The position numbers and the translations under genes were made by a program. From Saliphagus infecundisoli (GTDB lineage Archaea > Halobacteriota > Halobacteria > Halobacteriales > Natrialbaceae), in contig NZ_JAIWHV010000030.1 in NCBI RefSeq assembly GCF_020177375.1, positions 1 to 35,777 of the forward strand: DNA of 35,777 nt. Direction: 5' to 3'. This document shows, piece by piece, positions 2,475 through 15,226 of the stretch. The stretch's first letter is position 1, and each line of letters starts with the position of its first letter. Under the pieces are notes generated by a model. The model was not told where the DNA came from, did not search any database, and saw only the letters and a program-made list of their open reading frames with translations.

Positions 2475-3347
2475 CTACAACTGGATCGTCTCGACCTCGT
2501 CCTCGATCCCGATGTATATCTTGTCGACTAAGTCGACGAATAGCCCGTGCTCCTGAGCGCCAGGAATCCTTGCCAGCGCTTCGGCACGCTCGACCGGTTC
2601 GTCGATGTTCCCGAAGTCGCAATCCAATATGAGGTTGCCGTTGGCCGTGAACAGCGGGCCGTCCTTCGTCTCCGCGTAGCGCAGCGATGGCTCACCGCCT
2701 TGGTCCATGACCCACTGTTTCGCCACCGTCCGGGATTCGGGCAGCACCGAGAGCGGAATCGGATGGTCAAGTGGATCAGCAGCCTTGTTCTCGTCGGTCG
2801 CGATGACGAGCCGCTCGGCTGCAGTGTCGATAACTTTCTCGCGGGCGTGGGATGCGCCGCCGCCTTTCACGACGTGAGGTGCATACGGGTTGTACTGGTC
2901 GGCCCCGTCGATCGCCACGTCGAGTGTTGTGATCTCGTCGAGGTTGACGAGCGGAATGTCCACCTCCTTCGCGAGTTCGTGTGACTGGAGGGACGTCGCG
3001 ACACCACGGACGTTCTCGAGCTCTCCCGTGTTGAGTTTCCAACCGATTGCGGCAATGGCCCAGGCGGTCGTACTGCCGGTGCCGAGTCCGACGTCCATTC
3101 CGGACTCGACAACATCAGCGGCCGCGTTGCCGCCTCGCCGTCGCGTGTCCATGAGCACGTCCTCCATAGAACTCTTGATCCGTTGCGGAGACGGAATCAC
3201 CCGAACGTGATCCCTGATTTCATCCTCGCTGAGCGAGATGTTGTGCTCCGCGAGTTCGTTCGTCGCTTTCTCAACGACGTCGTTCTCGTCTTCTGCCCAC
3301 ACACTGATGTCGTGGTCGCCGTCAATGTACTGGAACTGTTTGGCCAT
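2475..3347 (-). CDS. rpiA: Ribose-5-phosphate isomerase A with an N-terminal DUF1059-like domain
   Basis: This protein interconverts ribulose-5-phosphate and ribose-5-phosphate. Residues 60-290 form a complete RpiA with GLGTGST (87-93), the DGAD active-site motif (147-150), KGGGASHAREK (161-171, catalytic Glu170) and ATDENK. The canonical DGADE reads DGADQ here. Residues 1-52 are an extra domain resembling the small DUF1059 family, which raises the length from about 230 to 290 residues. The ATG at 3347 lies 17 bases after gndA, so the two are probably co-transcribed. RpiA function is well supported; the role of the extension is unknown. Confidence 0.9.
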   Translation of the reverse strand: MAKQFQYIDGDHDISVWAEDENDVVEKATNELAEHNISLSEDEIRDHVRVIPSPQRIKSSMEDVLMDTRRRGGNAAADVVESGMDVGLGTGSTTAWAIAAIGWKLNTGELENVRGVATSLQSHELAKEVDIPLVNLDEITTLDVAIDGADQYNPYAPHVVKGGGASHAREKVIDTAAERLVIATDENKAADPLDHPIPLSVLPESRTVAKQWVMDQGGEPSLRYAETKDGPLFTANGNLILDCDFGNIDEPVERAEALARIPGAQEHGLFVDLVDKIYIGIEDEVETIQL

Positions 3348-3364
3348 AGTCGTCTCGTATGATG

Positions 3365-4381
3365 TCAGTCTTCGTCATCCACGGACCCGACTGTGTCCAT
3401 GTGGTCGTCTTCCCGTTCGAGCGTCCGTCTCGATTCGTTCGTTACCCGGCCGGTTCTGCGCTCTTCTCGGATATGTTCGTCCTCACCAAAGGGATGGGTT
3501 CCGAAGCCGTGGCGCATGGCCGCGATGGCTTTGTAGGCGTGTTGCTGATTTCCTCTGGATTTGAACAACTCGATCACTGACTGCGAGATTACCGGGATAG
3601 GTGTTTCACCCTTGAACGCCTCCTGGACCAACCAGTTGACCTCGCCGGTGTCCTCGATGTAATTGGGAATCCCCTCGAAGTCCTGCTCATGTAACTGGTC
3701 GCGCATCAGCTCGACGAGCCAGCTCCGGATGACCGTCCCGTTCGACCAGTTGGTGAACACGTCGCCGAGGTCGAGTTCGAAGTCGCCCGCCTCCAAGAGT
3801 TCGACGCCCTCGGCGATCGACTGGAGCATCCCGAACTCGACGCCGTTGTGCACCAGCTTCACGAAGTGACCGCTTCCCGGCGGCCCCGTATGGAGGAGTC
3901 CGTCGTCGACAGAAAGTTCATCAAGTATCGGTTCGGCGGTCTCGAAGCCGTCGTTTCGCCCGCCAACCATAAACGCAGCACCGTCTCGCGCACCGGGGGG
4001 GCCGCCACTGGTTCCGGTATCGAGGAAGTAAATCCCCTCCTCCCACAGCCGCTCCTCGCGGCGCATCGAGTCTCGCCAGAAGGAGTTGCCGCCGTCCATA
4101 ACGACATCGCCCTCGTCGAGGTGGTCTTTCAGGTTTGCCAGTTCGTCATCGATGAGAGAGCCCGCGGGGAGTGAGAGGTAAATCACCCGTGGCGGGTCGA
4201 GCTTTGCTGCGAGGGTTTCGTATGCGCCGCCATCCAGGACGGTCACCCCCATTTCCGCTAGTTCCGGGCGGTCGCTCCGGTTCACCCCGACAACCTCGAT
4301 GTCCTTTTCGACGGCCTGTTTCGCCAGATTGCCGCCGATCGATCCAAGTCCGATGATGCCGAGTTCTGAGTTCATAGTCAT
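3365..4381 (-). CDS. gndA: 6-phosphogluconate dehydrogenase, decarboxylating
   Basis: It oxidises 6-phosphogluconate to ribulose-5-phosphate and CO2. The N-terminal Rossmann motif is GLGSIGGN (11-18). DGGNSFWRDS, TSGGPPGARDGAAFMVGG (substrate loop) and KLVHNGVEFGMLQ (catalytic Lys and Asn) follow in the expected order. At 338 residues it belongs to the short GndA class found in haloarchaea, here with a charged C-terminal tail. The start could be ATG 4381 or, two codons in, ATG 4375; the second gives the more usual N-terminus. It heads an operon with rpiA, and a broken azf lies upstream, which together define an oxidative pentose phosphate cluster. Confidence 0.93.
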   Translation of the reverse strand: MTMNSELGIIGLGSIGGNLAKQAVEKDIEVVGVNRSDRPELAEMGVTVLDGGAYETLAAKLDPPRVIYLSLPAGSLIDDELANLKDHLDEGDVVMDGGNSFWRDSMRREERLWEEGIYFLDTGTSGGPPGARDGAAFMVGGRNDGFETAEPILDELSVDDGLLHTGPPGSGHFVKLVHNGVEFGMLQSIAEGVELLEAGDFELDLGDVFTNWSNGTVIRSWLVELMRDQLHEQDFEGIPNYIEDTGEVNWLVQEAFKGETPIPVISQSVIELFKSRGNQQHAYKAIAAMRHGFGTHPFGEDEHIREERRTGRVTNESRRTLEREDDHMDTVGSVDDED

Positions 4382-4657
4382 GTTCGTGTTCCAGATGCAA
4401 TTGCTGTTGTGCCGCGGCCCGTCCGGTGGGTTTACCCTCTCACCACCGGCATAGTTCGTATATCAACGTCACAGCCAATAAGTCCCACTGCCCGATTCCA
4501 CACACTCGATAGGTCGCGGACGGGCACTATGGAGGTTGATCCCTCATCGCGCGGAGTCGCGTGTTCGAACCGGCGGCACTGATTCATTGGTCTCAGCTGG
4601 CTCTATCTCAGTTACGTGGCCGTTGTTGTGAGATGGGACAAGGTTTTGTAAAGTGGA

Positions 4658-5872
4658 CTACTCAGCGAGCGTCTCCGCCGCGTTATCGCGTGGTTCGTAG
4701 CCAATCGCTCGCATCGTCTCGGTTATCGAATAAAACTGTTCGTCGTTTCGCGATACCGCGTTAACCGTCACTGAGGATTCCGATAGGTCGACTGTCGCCG
4801 CTTTCCGATGGATATCCTGGCAGTTGCGGGGGCTCAGCCATGTCGATCGAGCGAACCGGCTTTACTCGGCTCGACATCCTCTCCTGTGTTGTCACGGAGA
4901 TCGTTCTCGTCCATGTACCAGCCGATTGCGGACGTTGAAGACTTCGAGGCTGTGGACGTCAGCTTGACATCCTCATCGTCGTGAACGACGAGAATTCCTT
5001 CGTGGGGCGTCGGGCCGATCCCGACGTCCTCGAAGGCAACGTCCCGCCCGGCGGTCGGACGGTACCGGGTTTGTGCGTGATACGTCGGGCCTCTGAGAGG
5101 CGTTAGATGCATGGGTATCCGCTTGCACCGCACAGGCCGTGCCATCGACCCGACTCGGACGCCAATCCGAGTCTCGCATCGGGCAGGCTCGCGTTTGTGA
5201 TGACGGAGGAACGCCGAATCTCCTCCACGTTTCCCGAACGAGGGAGACTCATAACCGAGACTAGAAGGCCTCCGTGCGGTTGCGACACGAAGCGTACGCG
5301 ATTCACGCCCGTGAGCAAATCTTCGATTTGCAATGCCCATCAGAACGCACGCGTTCTGAGGACGGCCGTGAACGGCGAGACTCTCTCGCTGATTAAAGAT
5401 AGTAGTTCGCCAGTCCTTCACAGGCGATCTTACTGACGCCGTAGAAGGAGTCCGGTCGCGTCGGATCATCGGGATCGACCGTACGAGCGTCACCGATGGT
5501 CATACTCTTGGGATTGGTTGGATCGGCAGCGTTGTACGTGCCGACTGCATGGTTCGAACTTACGAACACGACGCGGTCGATTCCATTCTCGACTGCCGCG
5601 TCGAGAACGTTCTTCGTTCCCTGGACGGTGAGATCGACGACGGTGTCCCAGTCGGTGTCTGGCGAGGACGCACCGGCGAGGTGAATGACCGTATCGACGT
5701 TGTCGAGTTTTTCTCGCACTTCGTCGGGATCCGTGACGTCGAGGGTCTCACTGTCCACATCCTCGTGCTCCGAGTGGGTGAATAGAACGATATCGTGCTC
5801 TTCATCATCGAACGCGCCCAATAGCTCTCGACCGACGTTCCCCGCTGCGCCCGTCAGTCCGATTCGTGCCAT
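4658..5872 (-). pseudogene. azf: Glucose-6-phosphate dehydrogenase (Azf type), interrupted and frameshifted
   Basis: The intact gene would encode the NAD-dependent, SDR-family glucose-6-phosphate dehydrogenase known from Haloferax. The first part (5872 down to about 5398) has TGAAGNVG, the VVFVSSNHAVG strand and the catalytic SFYGVSK. A 437-bp insert follows. The gene resumes with ADVHSLEVFNVR, shifts frame by one base near 4930 (IGWYMDENDLRD), shifts again near 4865, and ends with NDEQFYSITETMRAIGYEPRD and TAG at 4658. At least two frameshifts plus an insertion make it non-functional. It probably formed one pathway unit with gndA and rpiA. Confidence 0.8.
4961..5397 (-). mobile_element. Non-autonomous IS200/IS605 (TnpB-type) element in azf
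   Basis: It interrupts azf exactly between the codons for ANYY and ADVHS. The end at 4961 reads, on the minus strand, GAGGATGTCAA behind a small hairpin (TCGTC/GACGA near 4978-4994), which resembles the right end of haloarchaeal IS1341/TnpB-type elements. The insert has no intact tnpA or tnpB. Such internally deleted derivatives have been called PATEs in haloarchaea. There is no target duplication, as expected for this superfamily. Confidence 0.6.
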
Positions 5873-5901
5873 CAATAGCACCAACGACTGTGAAGGGTAT
5901 A

Positions 5902-6340
5902 TTAGTCGCCCCCGTTTCGATACATTCCCTTGTGGAGCGTCCAATCGTACTGCTCGTACCGGACGCGTAGATGGTCCCTTTCGTCAATGACGTCGTACAG
6001 TTCGAGGAACTTGTAGATGCCACGTCGCCTGCCGAAGTCCCCACGAGAGGAAAGAAAGAGCCGCGTGATCCAGACCTCGCCGGCGTCACGGTCGTACGTC
6101 GATGATTGTTGGAGAAACGATCGCTTGTACTCGTGTCGAGTTCACTGCCGAGACTACTCGCTGTGTATGCAGTAATCGGCGGACAGCTCTCGGCACCACG
6201 GTTAGCGCGAAGTGGATGCGCGGGTCGACCTCAGGCACACAATGTTCGCGTTCGAAGGCCCTCGGGAACGGGCGAGGAACGTATCCGAGCTCGTACTTCC
6301 ACTTTGACGACCGGAGAATCCTGTGTTCGACCCCCTTTCA
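5902..6340 (-). pseudogene. DUF547-family protein, frameshifted
   Basis: Reading across frames gives a DUF547 protein. HRILRSSKWKYELGYVPRPF leads to EVDPRIHFAL, then a shift gives NRGAESCPPITAYTASSLGS (the family's conserved Cys-Pro segment). Another shift gives EVWITRLFLSSRGDFGRRRG and a C-terminus YEQYDWTLHKGMYRNGGD ending at 5902. At least two frameshifts are present and the N-terminal end fades out near 6340. It lies 29 bases upstream of azf on the same strand and may once have been in the same operon. The biochemical role of DUF547 is not known. Confidence 0.7.
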
Positions 6341-6869: not shown

Positions 6870-7084
6870 GTCTGATCTGCTCTATTGAATAGACTTTTTT
6901 CAGGGATTAGGATGAAGTAAATTGTAGCGTAGGAGGATTTCTGAAATTCCTTTGATAGTGTACTAATCTACTGCGCGGGACAGATGGAAGAGTGATTGGA
7001 AAGAGTCTGCCGTACAACTCCTCGGAAGTGTTCTTAGCACACCTATCCCAACGCCCTACCCCTATTCAACAGAGCAGTCTGATC
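6870..7084. mobile_element. 199-bp MITE with 15-bp inverted ends and 8-bp target duplication
   Basis: The ends TGCTCTATTGAATAG (6878-6892) and CTATTCAACAGAGCA (7062-7076) are inverted repeats with one mismatch. They are flanked by a perfect 8-bp direct repeat GTCTGATC at 6870-6877 and 7077-7084. The 199-bp body has no coding capacity. The same end sequence, TGCTCTATTGAA, recurs at 11591 and 13187 in this window, so a mobilising transposase of that family is probably present elsewhere in the cell. Confidence 0.85.
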
Positions 7085-9722: not shown

Positions 9723-10748
9723 ATGAGCTACTACGACGACGACCGCTGGGATTTCAATCTCGAAGGCGAAGGACGAATTGAGCCCGATCCAACCGATTCG
9801 ACCGCTATCGATGATGGCAGCTACGAACGTGGCGAAGACTCGCTCGAGGACGACCACATGGGCTATCCGGATAAACCTGGACCGGACTCATATGGGGGTG
9901 ACGAACGGGCTGAGCACCACTGTGAGTGTGGTGTCCCGCTCGATCCCGGCAGATCGAAGTGCGACTTCTGCCTCACGAACGACCTCGACTACGACGACAC
10001 CCCTGACAAATCCGATACGAACCGCGAAGTCACGGGCCTGATTCACGTCCTCGTCGACGCGACGAGCGAAGCCAACGCCGTGTGCGCCGCCCAAACCGTC
10101 TTCGACGGGCTGACTGGTGATCCACCCACCTCGTCGGTCGACGGGATCGACGAGTGCGAACTCGTTGCCACGCTCGAGGATGATCTCGTGGATCGGTTCG
10201 CCCGAGAGTGGGGCCAACTGCCCGGTGCCACCCCGGTTGATTCGACTGCCGGCCAGCGCCAGCTCGACACGATCCGACAGAACGCCGGCCACGACTACCT
10301 CGTCGCGAAGGACAACAGTACCGACACTGCTGCGGATAACCGTCCGACGCTCGATCCCGTGCTGTTCGACGCCGACGGCGAGCCCATCACCGATATCGAA
10401 GCGATCGGCCAGCTCATCGCTGGAGGCACGCTCAAGCGAACCCGCCCCGAGTGGGATACGAGCGACTCCGGTGACGAGCCAACTCGGACCTGGATCGTCC
10501 CTGCGATTGCCCTCGAACACGAGTCTGTGTCCGACTCTACTTACGATCAGTCCCGTGACAGCCTGACGCACTGCTTCCTCGAATGTTGCGAGTGTACCGA
10601 GGAAACCCGACACCGCTTCGATGGTTTCAACGCAGTTCCAAATCCAGCATGGGAGGACGACCCTGTCTGGAAGTGCACACGATGTGGGACAGCTCGACAC
10701 GGTCCCGTTCCAAGCGCCCTCACAGCAAAGTCTCACTCCCAGCACTGA
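9723..10748 (+). CDS. Acidic protein with two zinc-binding Cys clusters, unrecognised function
   Basis: A 341-residue acidic protein. An N-terminal knuckle CECGVPLDPGRSKCDFC lies near residues 67-83, and a C-terminal CCEC plus WKCTRCGTARHG resembles a zinc ribbon. The middle part (about 105-280) is soluble, with no membrane segment. The ATG at 9723 is preceded by a transposon-rich region, so the promoter may come from the element end at 9609-9620. Proteins of this build are common on haloarchaeal plasmids. A nucleic-acid-binding role is plausible from the zinc fingers, but nothing in the sequence shows it. Confidence 0.8.
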   Translation: MSYYDDDRWDFNLEGEGRIEPDPTDSTAIDDGSYERGEDSLEDDHMGYPDKPGPDSYGGDERAEHHCECGVPLDPGRSKCDFCLTNDLDYDDTPDKSDTNREVTGLIHVLVDATSEANAVCAAQTVFDGLTGDPPTSSVDGIDECELVATLEDDLVDRFAREWGQLPGATPVDSTAGQRQLDTIRQNAGHDYLVAKDNSTDTAADNRPTLDPVLFDADGEPITDIEAIGQLIAGGTLKRTRPEWDTSDSGDEPTRTWIVPAIALEHESVSDSTYDQSRDSLTHCFLECCECTEETRHRFDGFNAVPNPAWEDDPVWKCTRCGTARHGPVPSALTAKSHSQH

Positions 10749-10755
10749 GAGGGCT

Positions 10756-11145
10756 ATAGTGAACTACCCCGACCTACCGCGCTCGGGCCTGCCCGACCCT
10801 CGCTTGTTGAGGACGGGGCTTCCTGTTTCTGTGTCGGAACATATAGGAACAGAACCCACAGCGGTTCCAGACTTCGCAGGCGATTTCCCTTTACGGGCGG
10901 TTCGGAGTGTCCCGTTCCTACCGAATCGACACTCGACCACAACCGGCGATGCACGCTTTTTGTCGCGTTTGAACAACGCCGGAAGCGCGGTGAGTATCTT
11001 ACTACCCCCTTCGTCCACGGAGGTAGTAAGAGTTCCGATTTGCCCGAAAGCGAGACGTACGGGCGCTGTATCCCCTCTCTGCTCGCGTCTTCGCCGCTCG
11101 CTGAGGAAGGGGTCTTAGCGCCCTTGATTAAAGATAATACGGTAG
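10756..11145 (-). mobile_element. Remnant of an IS200/IS605 (TnpB-type) element
   Basis: The minus-strand end reads CGGGGTAGTTCACT at 10756, typical of haloarchaeal TnpB-element right ends, behind an imperfect hairpin. The minus-strand frame just inside has a tail containing ETGSPVLNKRGSGRPERGR that resembles the C-terminus of haloarchaeal TnpB proteins. No tnpA and no catalytic part of TnpB survive. The other end is uncertain, near GATTAAAGATA at 11126-11136, a sequence also present at the end of the element in azf (5384-5394). Confidence 0.55.
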
Positions 11146-11155
11146 CCTCCCGCTT

Positions 11156-11188
11156 GTGGTGTTGTTTTGCCCCGAGAGGGGTGCAGGG
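11156..11188 (+). promoter_or_regulatory. Leader shared with the ArdC gene
   Basis: GTGGTGTTG followed by a short hairpin CCCCGAGAGGGG precedes the start at 11220 by about 30 bases. Nearly the same leader precedes ardC at 17953-17985. This suggests a common expression signal for two accessory genes. Confidence 0.5.
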
Positions 11189-11219
11189 CAAACGAGAACA
11201 GTTGGCGAGTGAAGAATCA

Positions 11220-11590
11220 ATGTCCAAAGTGACACCAATGAATCAACCAGACACGAGTGCGATCTTCGCCGGCCTCAATGGCCGGTCAGACGCACAGCTT
11301 CCCGATTGGTACGCGAGCAGCCACGACATCAGTAACAACCTCACCATCGTTTGTCGAAGCCATCCGCGAACTTCCTCGAGCGATCGACACCTAGGTCGCC
11401 TACAATAACCCAGTGACTGGCGAGTGGGTTGAAACCGCTCGATTCAATGCCATCGTCGAACCATCGCGACTCCGTGACCATACACGGTCTGACGGTGGCT
11501 CCGTGGACACCCCCACCGAGGAGCCAGTCGATCCACTTTCCACGTTCCTTCGGACTCGTACACGATCCTCAACCCACAGACCGTCTATAG
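11220..11590 (+). pseudogene. N-terminal piece of a scattered plasmid gene
   Basis: From ATG 11220 it reads MSKVTPMNQPDTSAIFAGLN, then needs a frame change after NNLT to continue with FVEAIRELPRAID. An in-frame TAG precedes VAYNNPVTGEWVETARFNAI, and another shift gives DSYTILNPQTVYS. It breaks at the transposon end at 11591. The rest of the gene lies at 12538-13186 on the other strand and at 14304-14492. I do not recognise the family; it looks like a soluble conserved plasmid protein of about 400 residues. Confidence 0.7.
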
Positions 11591-11606
11591 TGCTCTATTG
11601 AAAATG
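11591..11606. repeat. Solo end of the TGCTCTATTGAA transposon family
   Basis: TGCTCTATTGAAAATG matches the left end of the MITE at 13187 exactly. It abuts GTCTATAG of the broken gene, and the partner fragment carries CTATAG next to the other copy. This marks the breakpoint of an inversion. Confidence 0.7.
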
Positions 11607-11835
11607 AACGATGGTATAATAATTCAGCAAATTCTATATTTCTGTTAGTAAAATACACTCTATTATAACCAGAATATACTCGTGGAGGGGCAATTACATT
11701 AAGCACAATCGGAAATAGTGGGAACGTTACGCCCCTCCTCGGTCGAAATGCGTGGTCTCTCGGCTCAAAATCCACTCATCCCGCCACCGCACCTCATTTT
11801 CAAGAGAGGAGAATTCATGAAGATATGATGTGGTG

Positions 11836-12453
11836 TCACTTCGCCTCTATTTCGTGGAAGATGCCCAGAAACGTTCGTCTCGTAGCGATCGGGCACAATC
11901 CGGCCTGCTCTACGAGTTCGAGGGGTTCCCGATTCCAGTGACAGCCGAGCTGTTTCGCGTGCGCTTGCTCTCGAACGTCCTGGAAACGCCCGACTAACCG
12001 ATTGTCGCTCCGGCCGTGTTCTAACAGGAGGACCCGGCCACCCTCCCGACAGACCCGTTCCATCTCACAGAGTGCTGCGATGGGATCAGGGTAGGTGCAC
12101 ACCGTCAATGTCGACACCACCGTGTCGAAGTGCTCGTCGGGAAACGCGAGCGTTTCTGCGTCCATAAGCTGAAAATCGATATCCAACCCCAGTTTCTCGG
12201 CCCGCTGTTTAGCGATATCCATCATCTCCGGACTCACGTCGACGGCAGTAATCTCACACCCGTCTGGATAGTAGGGGAAGTTCGCGCCTGTCCCACATGC
12301 AACCTCCAGCACTGTCCCCGACACCCGCCGCAACAGCCGCCGCCTGAGCCGCCTCACGCCGATAAATTCCTGCACACGCTCCATGAGAGCGTATTTGCTG
12401 GCGGATTCATCGTATTTCTGCTTGATTTCCTCGGTCGTGAAGTCAGTGCTCAT
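11836..12453 (-). CDS. Class I SAM-dependent methyltransferase (UbiE/COQ5-like)
   Basis: A 205-residue methyltransferase starting MSTDFTTEEIKQKYDESASK at 12453; a longer in-frame extension upstream is less likely. Motif I is VLEVACGTGANFPYYP, motif II AVDVSPEMMDIA, then the LMDAETLAFPDEHFDTVVS segment and a motif-III-like EGGRVLLLEHGRS. It transfers a methyl group from S-adenosylmethionine; the acceptor cannot be told from sequence, with a small lipid or quinone-like molecule being usual for this subfamily. It is a cargo gene lying inside the breakpoints of a scattered plasmid gene. Confidence 0.88.
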   Translation of the reverse strand: MSTDFTTEEIKQKYDESASKYALMERVQEFIGVRRLRRRLLRRVSGTVLEVACGTGANFPYYPDGCEITAVDVSPEMMDIAKQRAEKLGLDIDFQLMDAETLAFPDEHFDTVVSTLTVCTYPDPIAALCEMERVCREGGRVLLLEHGRSDNRLVGRFQDVREQAHAKQLGCHWNREPLELVEQAGLCPIATRRTFLGIFHEIEAK

Positions 12454-12537
12454 ATGCGTTGAATGCCTGACCGAGGGTAAACAGCAGTGCAAGGTATCTA
12501 TGATGGTTTAAGGCATGGATTCTGGGAAGAGGGAGTG

Positions 12538-13186
12538 TCCTCGGGATTGAACAGGATATCATTCGCTGTCCGCACGTAGCCATCGAGGGAGCCGCCCTCT
12601 CCGCCACGGAAGAAGTGCGTGAGCGCGTAGGTCGCTCCCGAGTGCAGTGTCCATAGGTCGATGAGGCACGGATCGTCAGCGTTGGCCAGCGCATCGTCAG
12701 CTGCTCGCTCGGCGAGATAGTCGGGGAACTCCAGCAGCGTGTAGAACTCCTCGATCGTGAGCGAGAGGTTTGTGAAGCCGAGGTTGATCTTCTGGACGTC
12801 CTCGATGAAGCCCACGAGGTCATCGTCAACCAGTTCGAGCTGGGTGAGGATCTGTTTCCATCACTCCTGGAAGTCGCGGACACCGCCGACGTGTTTGACA
12901 ATCTGCTTGTCCGTCAACGATCGCATCGAGTTCGAACACGTGCCGTCCTGAGCGAAACCTTCGACGTACACCGCGTGACCACCGAATAAATCGCACCCCG
13001 AAGTGACGGCCATCGTGATTGGCTCGCGATCGGCCCCAGGCAGCGTTGCTTCGAGGCCGTCGAATATGATGTCCCTGTGGACTTCGCCGCCGGCTCGGTA
13101 CTGGCGGATCTCGCCGAACACGATGTCCGCGAACGGCATCCCGTTGAGCGTCGAATCCCTGAGGAGTGTTTCGAGAGGGCTATAGA
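12538..13186 (-). pseudogene. Middle piece of the scattered plasmid gene, inverted
   Basis: Read on the minus strand from 13186, it continues the N-terminal piece (YSPLETLLRDSTLNGMPFAD) through FGEIRQYRAGGEVH, GGHAVYVEGFAQDGTCSNSM and EFYTLLEFPDYLAERAADDA to ANDILFNPED near 12538. A TGA replaces a Trp codon after DFQE (12859-12861), so this piece is also dead. Its start lies against CTATAG and a transposon end. The next residues of the gene (TIEQVERAYEAQ) are found at 14304 on the plus strand. Confidence 0.75.
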
Positions 13187-13460
13187 TGCTCTATTGAAAA
13201 TGTGGTACAGCATCGGGATCGAGGGTTCGAGGTCGGGGAGAATGGATGTCTTCCGATGTTTTGGTGATAGCATTCTTTGAAGGCTGCTCTGGCTGATGAG
13301 TTGCCAGTCAGTGTGTGCATAGCGTAGCCGTAGTTCCTGGAGTGAGACAAGATTACGGTAAAATAGACAAATTGTCCTGACATTCAGATTGGAAATATCC
13401 TCCATTGCCTCTTCCGATTAGGATCAATCGCTGCGCAATCGCCCATTTTCAATAGAGTGA
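13187..13460. mobile_element. MITE with CTCTATTGAAAATG inverted ends
   Basis: The left end TGCTCTATTGAAAATG (13187-13202) and the right end CATTTTCAATAGAG (13444-13457) are inverted over 14 bases. The roughly 270-bp body has no intact gene. CTATAG at its left edge matches CTATAG at the edge of the N-terminal gene piece (11585-11590), consistent with a target duplication later separated by an inversion. Confidence 0.75.
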
Positions 13461-13474
13461 AAATCGGCTAGACT

Positions 13475-13549
13475 GTGACCGATCTCGAAAAACACGGGTT
13501 GCTCTACCGGGAAAGCGTACGGCCGGACATCCCGTGTCTACCCAGATGA
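13475..13549 (+). pseudogene. Short HTH-regulator remnant
   Basis: A 24-codon frame VTDLEKHGLLYRESVRPDIP ending at TGA resembles the end of an ArsR/MarR-type winged helix. It directly follows the MITE and has no start of its own. This is a tentative reading of a small fragment. Confidence 0.3.
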
Positions 13550-13638
13550 AACACTTTCTGGTGCGGGCGAGCGTCGTTCGGATTCCGAGTGAACCATTAC
13601 CGCATCCATTCATAACCAACTGTATCGTTCTCCTAGTC

Positions 13639-14277
13639 ATGAAATATCTCCGTATGACCGTCTCGCAGGAGATCATCGCTCCTGCTTCACTAGTAACCGA
13701 AGGGCGCCTCCTCAACATCCAGCTCCTGCCTGATGAAACGATACTTGAGTTGGCGCTTGTTCGTGCGGATCCTGAGGAGCTTCTCAGTGAGATAGAAACA
13801 ACCACCAGTACGGAACGGTTTGCTTACGAAGCGGTGGAGGCCCAAGAGGATCACTGGTACGTCTACCAACACTGTCAGCCAACCGGACAGGCGTGGGAAC
13901 TCTTTCAACTGTTAAACAACTATCGGCTGATGATTATGTTCCCGATTCTCTTTGATGACACTGGCTGCACGATCGAGATCATCGGCCGTGAATCGGACGT
14001 CCAACACGGATTCGACGCGCTGCCCGATGATATTCGTCGACAGACCTCGATCGAACGAGTGAGCGAGTATTCACCACAGGCAACAACACCGAGTTCGAAA
14101 CTGACCGAGCGCCAGCGTGATATCCTCGACGCGGCAGCCACTGTGGGCTACTACGACGTTCCTCGCCGTGGGACTGCTGACGATGTCGCTGCAGCCGTTG
14201 GGTGTGCGCCAAGCACGGCTTCCGAACATCTCCGAAAGATCGAAGCCCGAATCCTCTCCGCTATCGCCGAAGACTAA
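13639..14277 (+). CDS. Bacterio-opsin-activator-like HTH regulator
   Basis: A 212-residue protein starting MKYLRMTVSQEIIAPASLV at 13639; an in-frame extension to 13534 overlaps the previous remnant and is unlikely. The N-terminal 150 residues form the alpha/beta sensor-like domain usual for these proteins. The C-terminus (about 157-212) is the bat-type HTH: LTERQRDILDAAATVGYYDV, PRRGTADDVAAAVGCAPSTA, SEHLRKIEARIL. It is likely a DNA-binding transcription regulator. It lies between two pieces of another gene, so it arrived as cargo with the methyltransferase or nearby. Confidence 0.88.
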   Translation: MKYLRMTVSQEIIAPASLVTEGRLLNIQLLPDETILELALVRADPEELLSEIETTTSTERFAYEAVEAQEDHWYVYQHCQPTGQAWELFQLLNNYRLMIMFPILFDDTGCTIEIIGRESDVQHGFDALPDDIRRQTSIERVSEYSPQATTPSSKLTERQRDILDAAATVGYYDVPRRGTADDVAAAVGCAPSTASEHLRKIEARILSAIAED

Positions 14278-14303
14278 CCTACTGTCCCACCGGTGCGAGC
14301 AGA

Positions 14304-14492
14304 ACGATCGAGCAGGTCGAGCGGGCCTACGAAGCGCAGATGGCGGCAGACGACAGCGTGCAGGAAACCCTTGAGGGAGAGGGCGGGGTAGCGCGAATCG
14401 AGCAGGTCAGCGACGACCTCCAGGCAACTGTCCAGCAGTTCGAGAGCCATGAAGAAGCACTGCGAGAGCGATTCCAGGCTCCTCTAGAGTGA
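14304..14492 (+). pseudogene. C-terminal piece of the scattered plasmid gene
   Basis: It begins TIEQVERAYEAQMAADDSV, continues IEQVSDDLQATVQQFESHEE and ends LRERFQAPLE at 14492. It follows directly from NPED at the end of the middle piece (12538, opposite strand). It looks coiled-coil and has no start of its own. Confidence 0.7.
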
Positions 14493-14560
14493 GTACGACT
14501 GGTCGGAGACTGAAGCTTAGAGCGCAAGACTGCCGAGTGAGTACGGCCCAGTCGTGGAAT

Positions 14561-14570
14561 CACATATATA
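14561..14570 (+). promoter_or_regulatory. TATA box of the TBP gene
   Basis: CACATATATA lies about 30 bases upstream of the ATG at 14598. That spacing predicts a leaderless or nearly leaderless transcript, as is common in haloarchaea. Confidence 0.6.
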
Positions 14571-14597
14571 GATGGCTCTCTGATGTGCTAGAAAGGA

Positions 14598-15158
14598 ATG
14601 GTAATCCCCAGAGAGACGCTTTCGATCGAAAACGTCGTCGGGTCAGCAAACCTTGAACAAGAGATCGATCTCGACGCTCTCGCAGACGATCTCGATGATG
14701 TCTCATACGATCCGGAACGATTTCCAGGGCTCATCTTCCGAACGCAGGATCCGAAGGCAGCAGCACTGATCTTTCGGTCGGGCAAACTCGTCTGTACGGG
14801 TGCATCATCGATTGCAGACATGACCACTGCGGTTGAGATGGCGTTCGAGAAACTTCGAACATTGGGACTCGATATTCCTCCTGAGCCAGACGTAACGGTC
14901 CAGAATATCGTTACAAGTGGCGATCTGGGTACTGAACTTAACCTCACTGCAATCGCAATCGGGCTTGGGTTAGAAGCCGTCGAGTACGAACCCGAACAGT
15001 TCCCCGGATTGGTCTACCGAGCGGACGAGCTGAGTGTCGTTGTGTTATTATTCGGGACCGGCAAATTCGTTATTACTGGCGGGGAACGTCCGTCAGATGC
15101 TGAAGACGCTACTGAAGCTGTTCAGACAGAATTAACCGAGCTCGGACTCCTCGAGTAA
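14598..15158 (+). CDS. tbp: TATA-box-binding protein paralogue
   Basis: A general transcription factor of 186 residues, the full length for an archaeal TBP. The two imperfect repeats are clear: IENVVGSANLEQEIDLDALA, YDPERFPGLIFRTQDPKAAA and LIFRSGKLVCTGA in the first lobe; VQNIVTSGDLGTELNLTAIA, YEPEQFPGLVYRADEL and LLFGTGKFVITGG in the second. The second lobe reads FVITGG where the first has the common VCTGA. Haloarchaea often carry extra TBPs on plasmids that direct gene subsets. It has its own TATA box and converges on a small histone-fold gene. Confidence 0.95.
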   Translation: MVIPRETLSIENVVGSANLEQEIDLDALADDLDDVSYDPERFPGLIFRTQDPKAAALIFRSGKLVCTGASSIADMTTAVEMAFEKLRTLGLDIPPEPDVTVQNIVTSGDLGTELNLTAIAIGLGLEAVEYEPEQFPGLVYRADELSVVVLLFGTGKFVITGGERPSDAEDATEAVQTELTELGLLE

Positions 15159-15226
15159 CCAGCTCAGTTCTATCGGTTGGCGAGTGTTTTCCTCGATCGC
15201 TCCCGAAGAGGACGAGATTCGGCAGG

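Follow-up and report, generated by a model that had tools for sequence, protein, structure and literature searches.

The stretch of DNA that was analysed, referred to here as the window, comprised the 35,777 nucleotides of contig NZ_JAIWHV010000030.1 of Saliphagus infecundisoli. Between the gene of an MSYYDDDRW protein and a gene for a TATA-box-binding protein we found three pieces of coding sequence, the middle one inverted, together with two MITEs (X and Y), a methyltransferase gene, a fragment of a MarR-type regulator gene and a gene for a bat-type regulator (Table 1). The same genome carries two intact paralogues, C36 and C46, which match the middle piece at 85% and 83% DNA identity and whose frames are open through both junctions (QTVYNPLETLL and NPHGTIEQVER in C36; QTVYSPLETLL and NPHGTINQVER in C46). 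In the DNA alignment with L005, the C36 locus, window positions 11145-11587, 12543-13186 and 14302-15159 corresponded to 3272-3715, 4355-3712 (reversed) and 4360-5202, respectively, and the pieces covered all of the C36 gene, overlapping by 4 bases at the first junction and leaving a gap of 4 bases at the second. At the protein level, the middle piece was 85% identical to L005 over 214 aa (E 1e-126), the N-terminal piece 70% over 67 aa, its first ~32 aa matching in another frame, and the C-terminal piece 68% over 62 aa. End-to-end alignment with C36, C46 and four plasmid homologues showed, as an earlier note on this DNA had proposed, that the three pieces come from one gene of about 390 codons, representing its N-terminal, middle and C-terminal parts, and do not belong to different proteins. 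The start given there, 11220, has to be moved, because homology to the gene start points to the ATG at 11238.

Table 1. Features of the interrupted gene and its surroundings in the window
Feature	Position	Strand	Remarks
Upstream neighbour, MSYYDDDRW protein gene	9723..10748	+	Aligns to L005 2181-3253; common to the C36 locus
N-terminal piece (pseudogene)	11238..11590	+	Aligns to L005 3272-3715; homology extends upstream to 11145
Target copy 1, GTCTATAG	11583..11590	+	Adjoins MITE X at its A-type end
MITE X, 220 bp, A end to B end	11591..11810	+	TIRs TGCTCTATTGAAAATG / TCCTCTCTTGAAAATG; haloarchaeal 220-222 bp MITE family
Class I SAM-dependent methyltransferase (Methyltransf_11), inserted DNA	11836..12438	-	
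Left edge of inserted DNA	12439..12542	.	Junction with the middle piece at ~12538-12542
Middle piece, inverted	12543..13186	-	85% identical to L005 4355-3712
Target copy 2, TCTATAG on the gene strand	13180..13186	-	Touches the B-type end of MITE Y; one base less than the family's 8 bp
MITE Y, 273 bp, B end 13187, A end 13459	13187..13459	-	TIRs TGCTCTATTGAAAATG / CACTCTATTGAAAATG
MarR-type winged-helix regulator gene fragment	13460..13545	+	78-86% DNA identity to intact genes in L078, L081 and L085
Bat-type regulator (HVO_0513_N + HTH_10), inserted DNA	13639..14277	+	70% protein identity to a Haladaptatus halobius plasmid gene
C-terminal piece	14302..14492	+	Starts at L005 4360, four bases past the end of the middle piece (4355)
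Downstream neighbour, TATA-box-binding protein gene	14598..15158	+	Common to both intact loci (C36, C46)

The middle part of the gene was present in 44 haloarchaeal plasmid records, and the gene was intact in four of those that were read, with an annotated or translated length of 352-386 aa. The intact paralogue L005 matched the profile of PHROG 13083, a plasmid/virus protein family of unknown function, from position 74 to 419 of 420 (E 1.3e-126), and the three pieces, which align to L005, belong with it to this family. No match to the gene was found in Pfam or NCBIfam, and a weak PDB match was judged to be due to chance.

The window copy carries two frameshifts and two stop codons. The N-terminal piece has a +1 shift near 11335, a TAG at 11392-11394 and a -1 shift near 11538, and the middle piece has a TGA at 12863-12861 (minus strand). 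Because of these lesions the frame is not open across the pieces, so the protein described in the earlier note as reading continuously over both junctions is continuous by homology. Judged from its reading frame, the window copy is a pseudogene and dead. Elsewhere on the contig, at window 5393-5944, the start of a sugar/NAD-epimerase-like gene was recognised by eye; it ends abruptly and is possibly another broken gene.

A single MITE had been placed at the inversion, and we found two. Both X and Y possess the two TIRs of an IS family with the TIR TGCTCTATTGAAAATG, together with its subterminal sequences, which differ between the A end (roughly GNNGACNGCG) and the B end (roughly CGGTACGGCGGC); X runs from A to B and Y from B to A. 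The same TIR bounds, in related genomes, IS copies of ~930 bp with a 274-aa DDE transposase as well as 222-bp MITEs, and wherever copies of this family retain a target duplication it is exactly 8 bp. The transposase of the family scored 131 bits (E 5.7e-38) with NCBIfam transpos_IS5_2, below the cut-off of 140, and matched Pfam DDE_Tnp_1 (E 3e-13); on these comparisons, X and Y appear to carry the ends of an IS5-like element of ~930 bp. The interior of Y is unlike that of other family members, only its ends being common with the 220-222 bp MITEs. X is 76% identical over 98 bp to a 221-bp MITE of Natronococcus jeotgali, its best match, and was not found elsewhere in its own genome. When the whole 4.5-Mb assembly was searched for the TIR with up to two mismatches, four of the five occurrences were the ends of X and Y. 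The assembly lacked a full copy of this IS and any close transposase, the intact transposases showing at most 40% identity. In the window's own genome, G000 C20:21651-22008 holds a broken relative of the cognate transposase, 60% identical over 70 aa and with internal stops. The A end of Y (13444-13459) was also considered as mere regulator-gene sequence, a reading that was rejected because its inner bases match the A end of the IS. A third MITE, of a related type (199 bp, TIR TGCTCTATTGAATAGA), lies at window 6878-7076 within a perfect 8-bp target duplication, GTCTGATC. In another genome, a 2.4-kb stretch between IS ends (L099 8001-10445, G048 C38) has an 8-bp duplication, GTTTCTTC, and two more internal ends, and may be either a composite or a nested element.

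The target GTCTATAG occurs once in the intact genes (GGTCTACAGCCC in C46) and twice, in inverse orientation, in the window. The N-terminal piece ends with ACCGTCTATAG and the middle piece, read on the gene strand, begins with TCTATAGCCCTC; each target copy adjoins a perfect 16-bp TIR, TGCTCTATTGAAAATG, belonging to a different MITE, and the outer ends of X and Y have two mismatches each. CTATAG had been reported to abut an element end at both breakpoints. At 11590|11591 it lies directly against the TIR; an A separates the two at the second breakpoint (CTATAGA|TGCTC), so that the shared target is 7 bp, TCTATAG, and this second copy is one base short of the 8-bp duplication of the family. Neither X nor Y is now flanked on both sides by an 8-bp target duplication. 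The sole matching pair (7 bp) is shared between the two MITEs, and the outer flanks, ATGAATTC of X and CCGATTTT of Y, do not pair (ATGAATTC and AAAATCGG differ). The reversed middle piece and the target present twice inversely, each copy at a MITE tip, identify the first breakpoint as a MITE-bounded inversion, in agreement with the earlier reading, and turning 11591-13460 round does put a single MITE, Y, between two copies of the target.

The breakpoint between the middle and C-terminal parts proved to be a separate insertion of 1.76 kb with the methyltransferase gene, the MarR-type fragment and the HTH_10 regulator gene. Once the inversion is undone, the order from the middle to the C-terminal part is methyltransferase, X, MarR-type fragment and HTH_10 regulator. 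The cut in the MarR-type gene falls precisely at Y's outer end (13460), and the remainder of the gene is missing. No target duplication longer than 2 bp was found at the edges of the insertion, an Rfam search of the region gave no match, and no source or mechanism for the 1.76 kb was found. The methyltransferase and the bat-type regulator had been regarded as cargo, and one separate insertion does hold both of them; it entered at the junction between the middle and C-terminal parts with no recognisable target duplication, and the two genes are not cargo of a MITE. Relatives of both genes lie ~1-3 kb apart in three other genomes, suggesting that the methyltransferase and the HTH_10 regulator may have arrived as a pair.

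The cut MarR-type gene and the insertion that lacks a duplication imply that other breaks occurred here, and two or more unrelated breaks, by adjacent deletions and end joining, could in principle have given the present order, with the repeated CTATAG a coincidence. We regard this as improbable, because a 7-bp inverted match at the exact tips of both TIRs has a chance of ~6e-5 (4 to the minus 7) and the gene holds no second copy of the target sequence. It is more improbable still that the contig is chimeric at the MITEs: the assembly is a draft of 76 contigs, but X and Y are single-copy and share at most ~30 bp, too little to mislead an assembler, and the decayed reading frame denotes an old lesion.

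Instead, a one-step deletion-inversion mediated by a transposase, together with the independent insertion between the middle and C-terminal parts, probably destroyed this conserved plasmid gene. Before the event, Y would have been located downstream of X in direct orientation, and a transposase supplied in trans would have brought together the A end of X and the B end of Y that faced it. Both tips would have been cleaved, the DNA between them discarded and the tips joined to one target, GTCTATAG, in the upstream gene. As a result, the stretch from the target to X (gene middle, methyltransferase and X) would have been inverted, and the target would have become two inversely oriented copies, one at each MITE. 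The DNA with the methyltransferase, the MarR-type fragment and the HTH_10 regulator would have entered in a separate event. A one-step reaction with one end of each MITE gives the present product and needs no recombination in the 14-20 bp of shared sequence.

The present order of the pieces is also obtained if insertion of Y into the gene, accompanied by a target duplication, came first and the segment reaching from it to an older, inverted X was later turned by recombination between the similar A ends. If 11591-13460 is turned back, Y stands between two copies of the target and has a perfect TIR at each end, and X and Y have 20 bp (90%) of their A ends in common, in inverse orientation; 14-20 bp of shared sequence is, however, little for homologous recombination. 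The CA tip now at the outer end of Y is also found at the A end of the N. jeotgali MITE, the best match of X, but this A end resembles the A end of Y too (85% over 34 bp), so the tip is not decisive. What separates the two routes is the state of the flanks: when inverted copies recombine, both target duplications are exchanged, whereas only one pair still matches after a deletion-inversion. In the window the target is inversely duplicated at the tips of two elements, over 7 of 8 bp, and the second flank pair is mismatched, unlike the two exchanged pairs of the G169 case described below. Non-matching outer flanks are expected under deletion-inversion because the DNA between X and Y would be lost, and the single matching pair thus favours the one-step course. 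Insertion followed by a flip, the route suggested earlier, is therefore not established, as the one-step reaction yields the same product and explains the single flank match; we consider it possible, though rather unlikely.

Some observations weigh against the one-step deletion-inversion. The second target copy has 7 instead of 8 bp, the enzyme is putative, the assembly having neither a full IS copy nor a close transposase, and X looks old, with a decayed interior, so that an outer target duplication may have eroded, which weakens the flank test. It is because of the age of X and the missing target base that we call the one-step route probable and keep the two-step route as a lesser possibility. 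A search for a sister plasmid without the inversion found none. Two further candidates were rejected: replicative adjacent inversion by one element, in which X and Y would be copies, yet they share only their ends; and a composite transposon running from X to Y with the methyltransferase, since the gene middle lies inside the pair, inverted.

Two cases in related genomes served for comparison. In plasmid CP100757.1 of Natrinema gelatinilyticum (L089 6913-8073), the terminal 127 bp of the IS (nt 1-127) are inverted, and IS nt 120-127 are present twice inversely, 8 of 8 bp, with the IS tip at one copy and the tip of a 222-bp MITE at the other. The breakpoint is at most 4 bp from the tip. As the TIRs diverge from their fifth base onward, a crossover would be confined to the first four, and cleavage of the tips by a transposase is far more likely. 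This is a second event resembling a deletion-inversion, and the window fits the same pattern. In G169, two inverted full IS copies lie 1 Mb apart (L271 and L272; C2 1313737-1314669 and 2323063-2323995) with both 8-bp target duplications exchanged, a positive control for recombination; the pair points either to recombination that inverted 1 Mb of the chromosome or to an assembly join.

Whether haloarchaeal IS5-like transposases can, in a single reaction, link ends from two dissimilar non-autonomous MITEs and so invert adjacent DNA, that is, whether deletion-inversion or reversed-ends transposition operates in archaea, is a proposal on which we place about even weight. If it is true, orphan MITEs need not move as units to reshape plasmids. 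The locus offers a base-level view of an archaeal plasmid gene scrambled by short transposon remnants, and the count of matching flank pairs, one or two, is a sequence test, usable in finished genomes, for telling an inversion made by a transposase from one made by recombination. The finding is silent on the function of the broken gene.

For Tn10 the term for such events is deletion-inversion (PMC2723962), and for maize it is reversed-ends transposition (PMC4270019). As in the inside-end deletion-inversions of Tn10/IS10, the ends of two separate copies would have been joined to one target, the segment from the target to one copy inverted and the DNA between the copies lost (PMC2723962); the window differs in that the family is archaeal and IS5-like, the ends come from two unlike non-autonomous MITEs, and the elements would have been in direct, not inverted, order before the event. 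In the transposition of reversed Ac ends of maize, facing ends of neighbouring elements, one of them broken, move jointly into a nearby site with an 8-bp duplication, and inversions are among the products (PMC4270019), whereas the window concerns a prokaryotic plasmid and another transposase family, with no sister chromatid. Ectopic recombination of the Galileo type, in the available part of its description (PMC2775673), likewise gives an inversion bounded by two inverted element copies, but with both target duplications exchanged, while the window has one matching pair; on that description, the IS pair of G169 is the true example of it in these data. The haloarchaeal MITEs of the Haloquadratum catalogue (PMC3119063) are, like X and Y, short and without transposase and have the TIR and duplication length of a full transposon, although no inversion was reported there between the two strains compared. 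The broken gene is a well-preserved fossil of a known type of transposon accident and not a new genetic system, an event of an ordinary kind seen in unusually clear detail.
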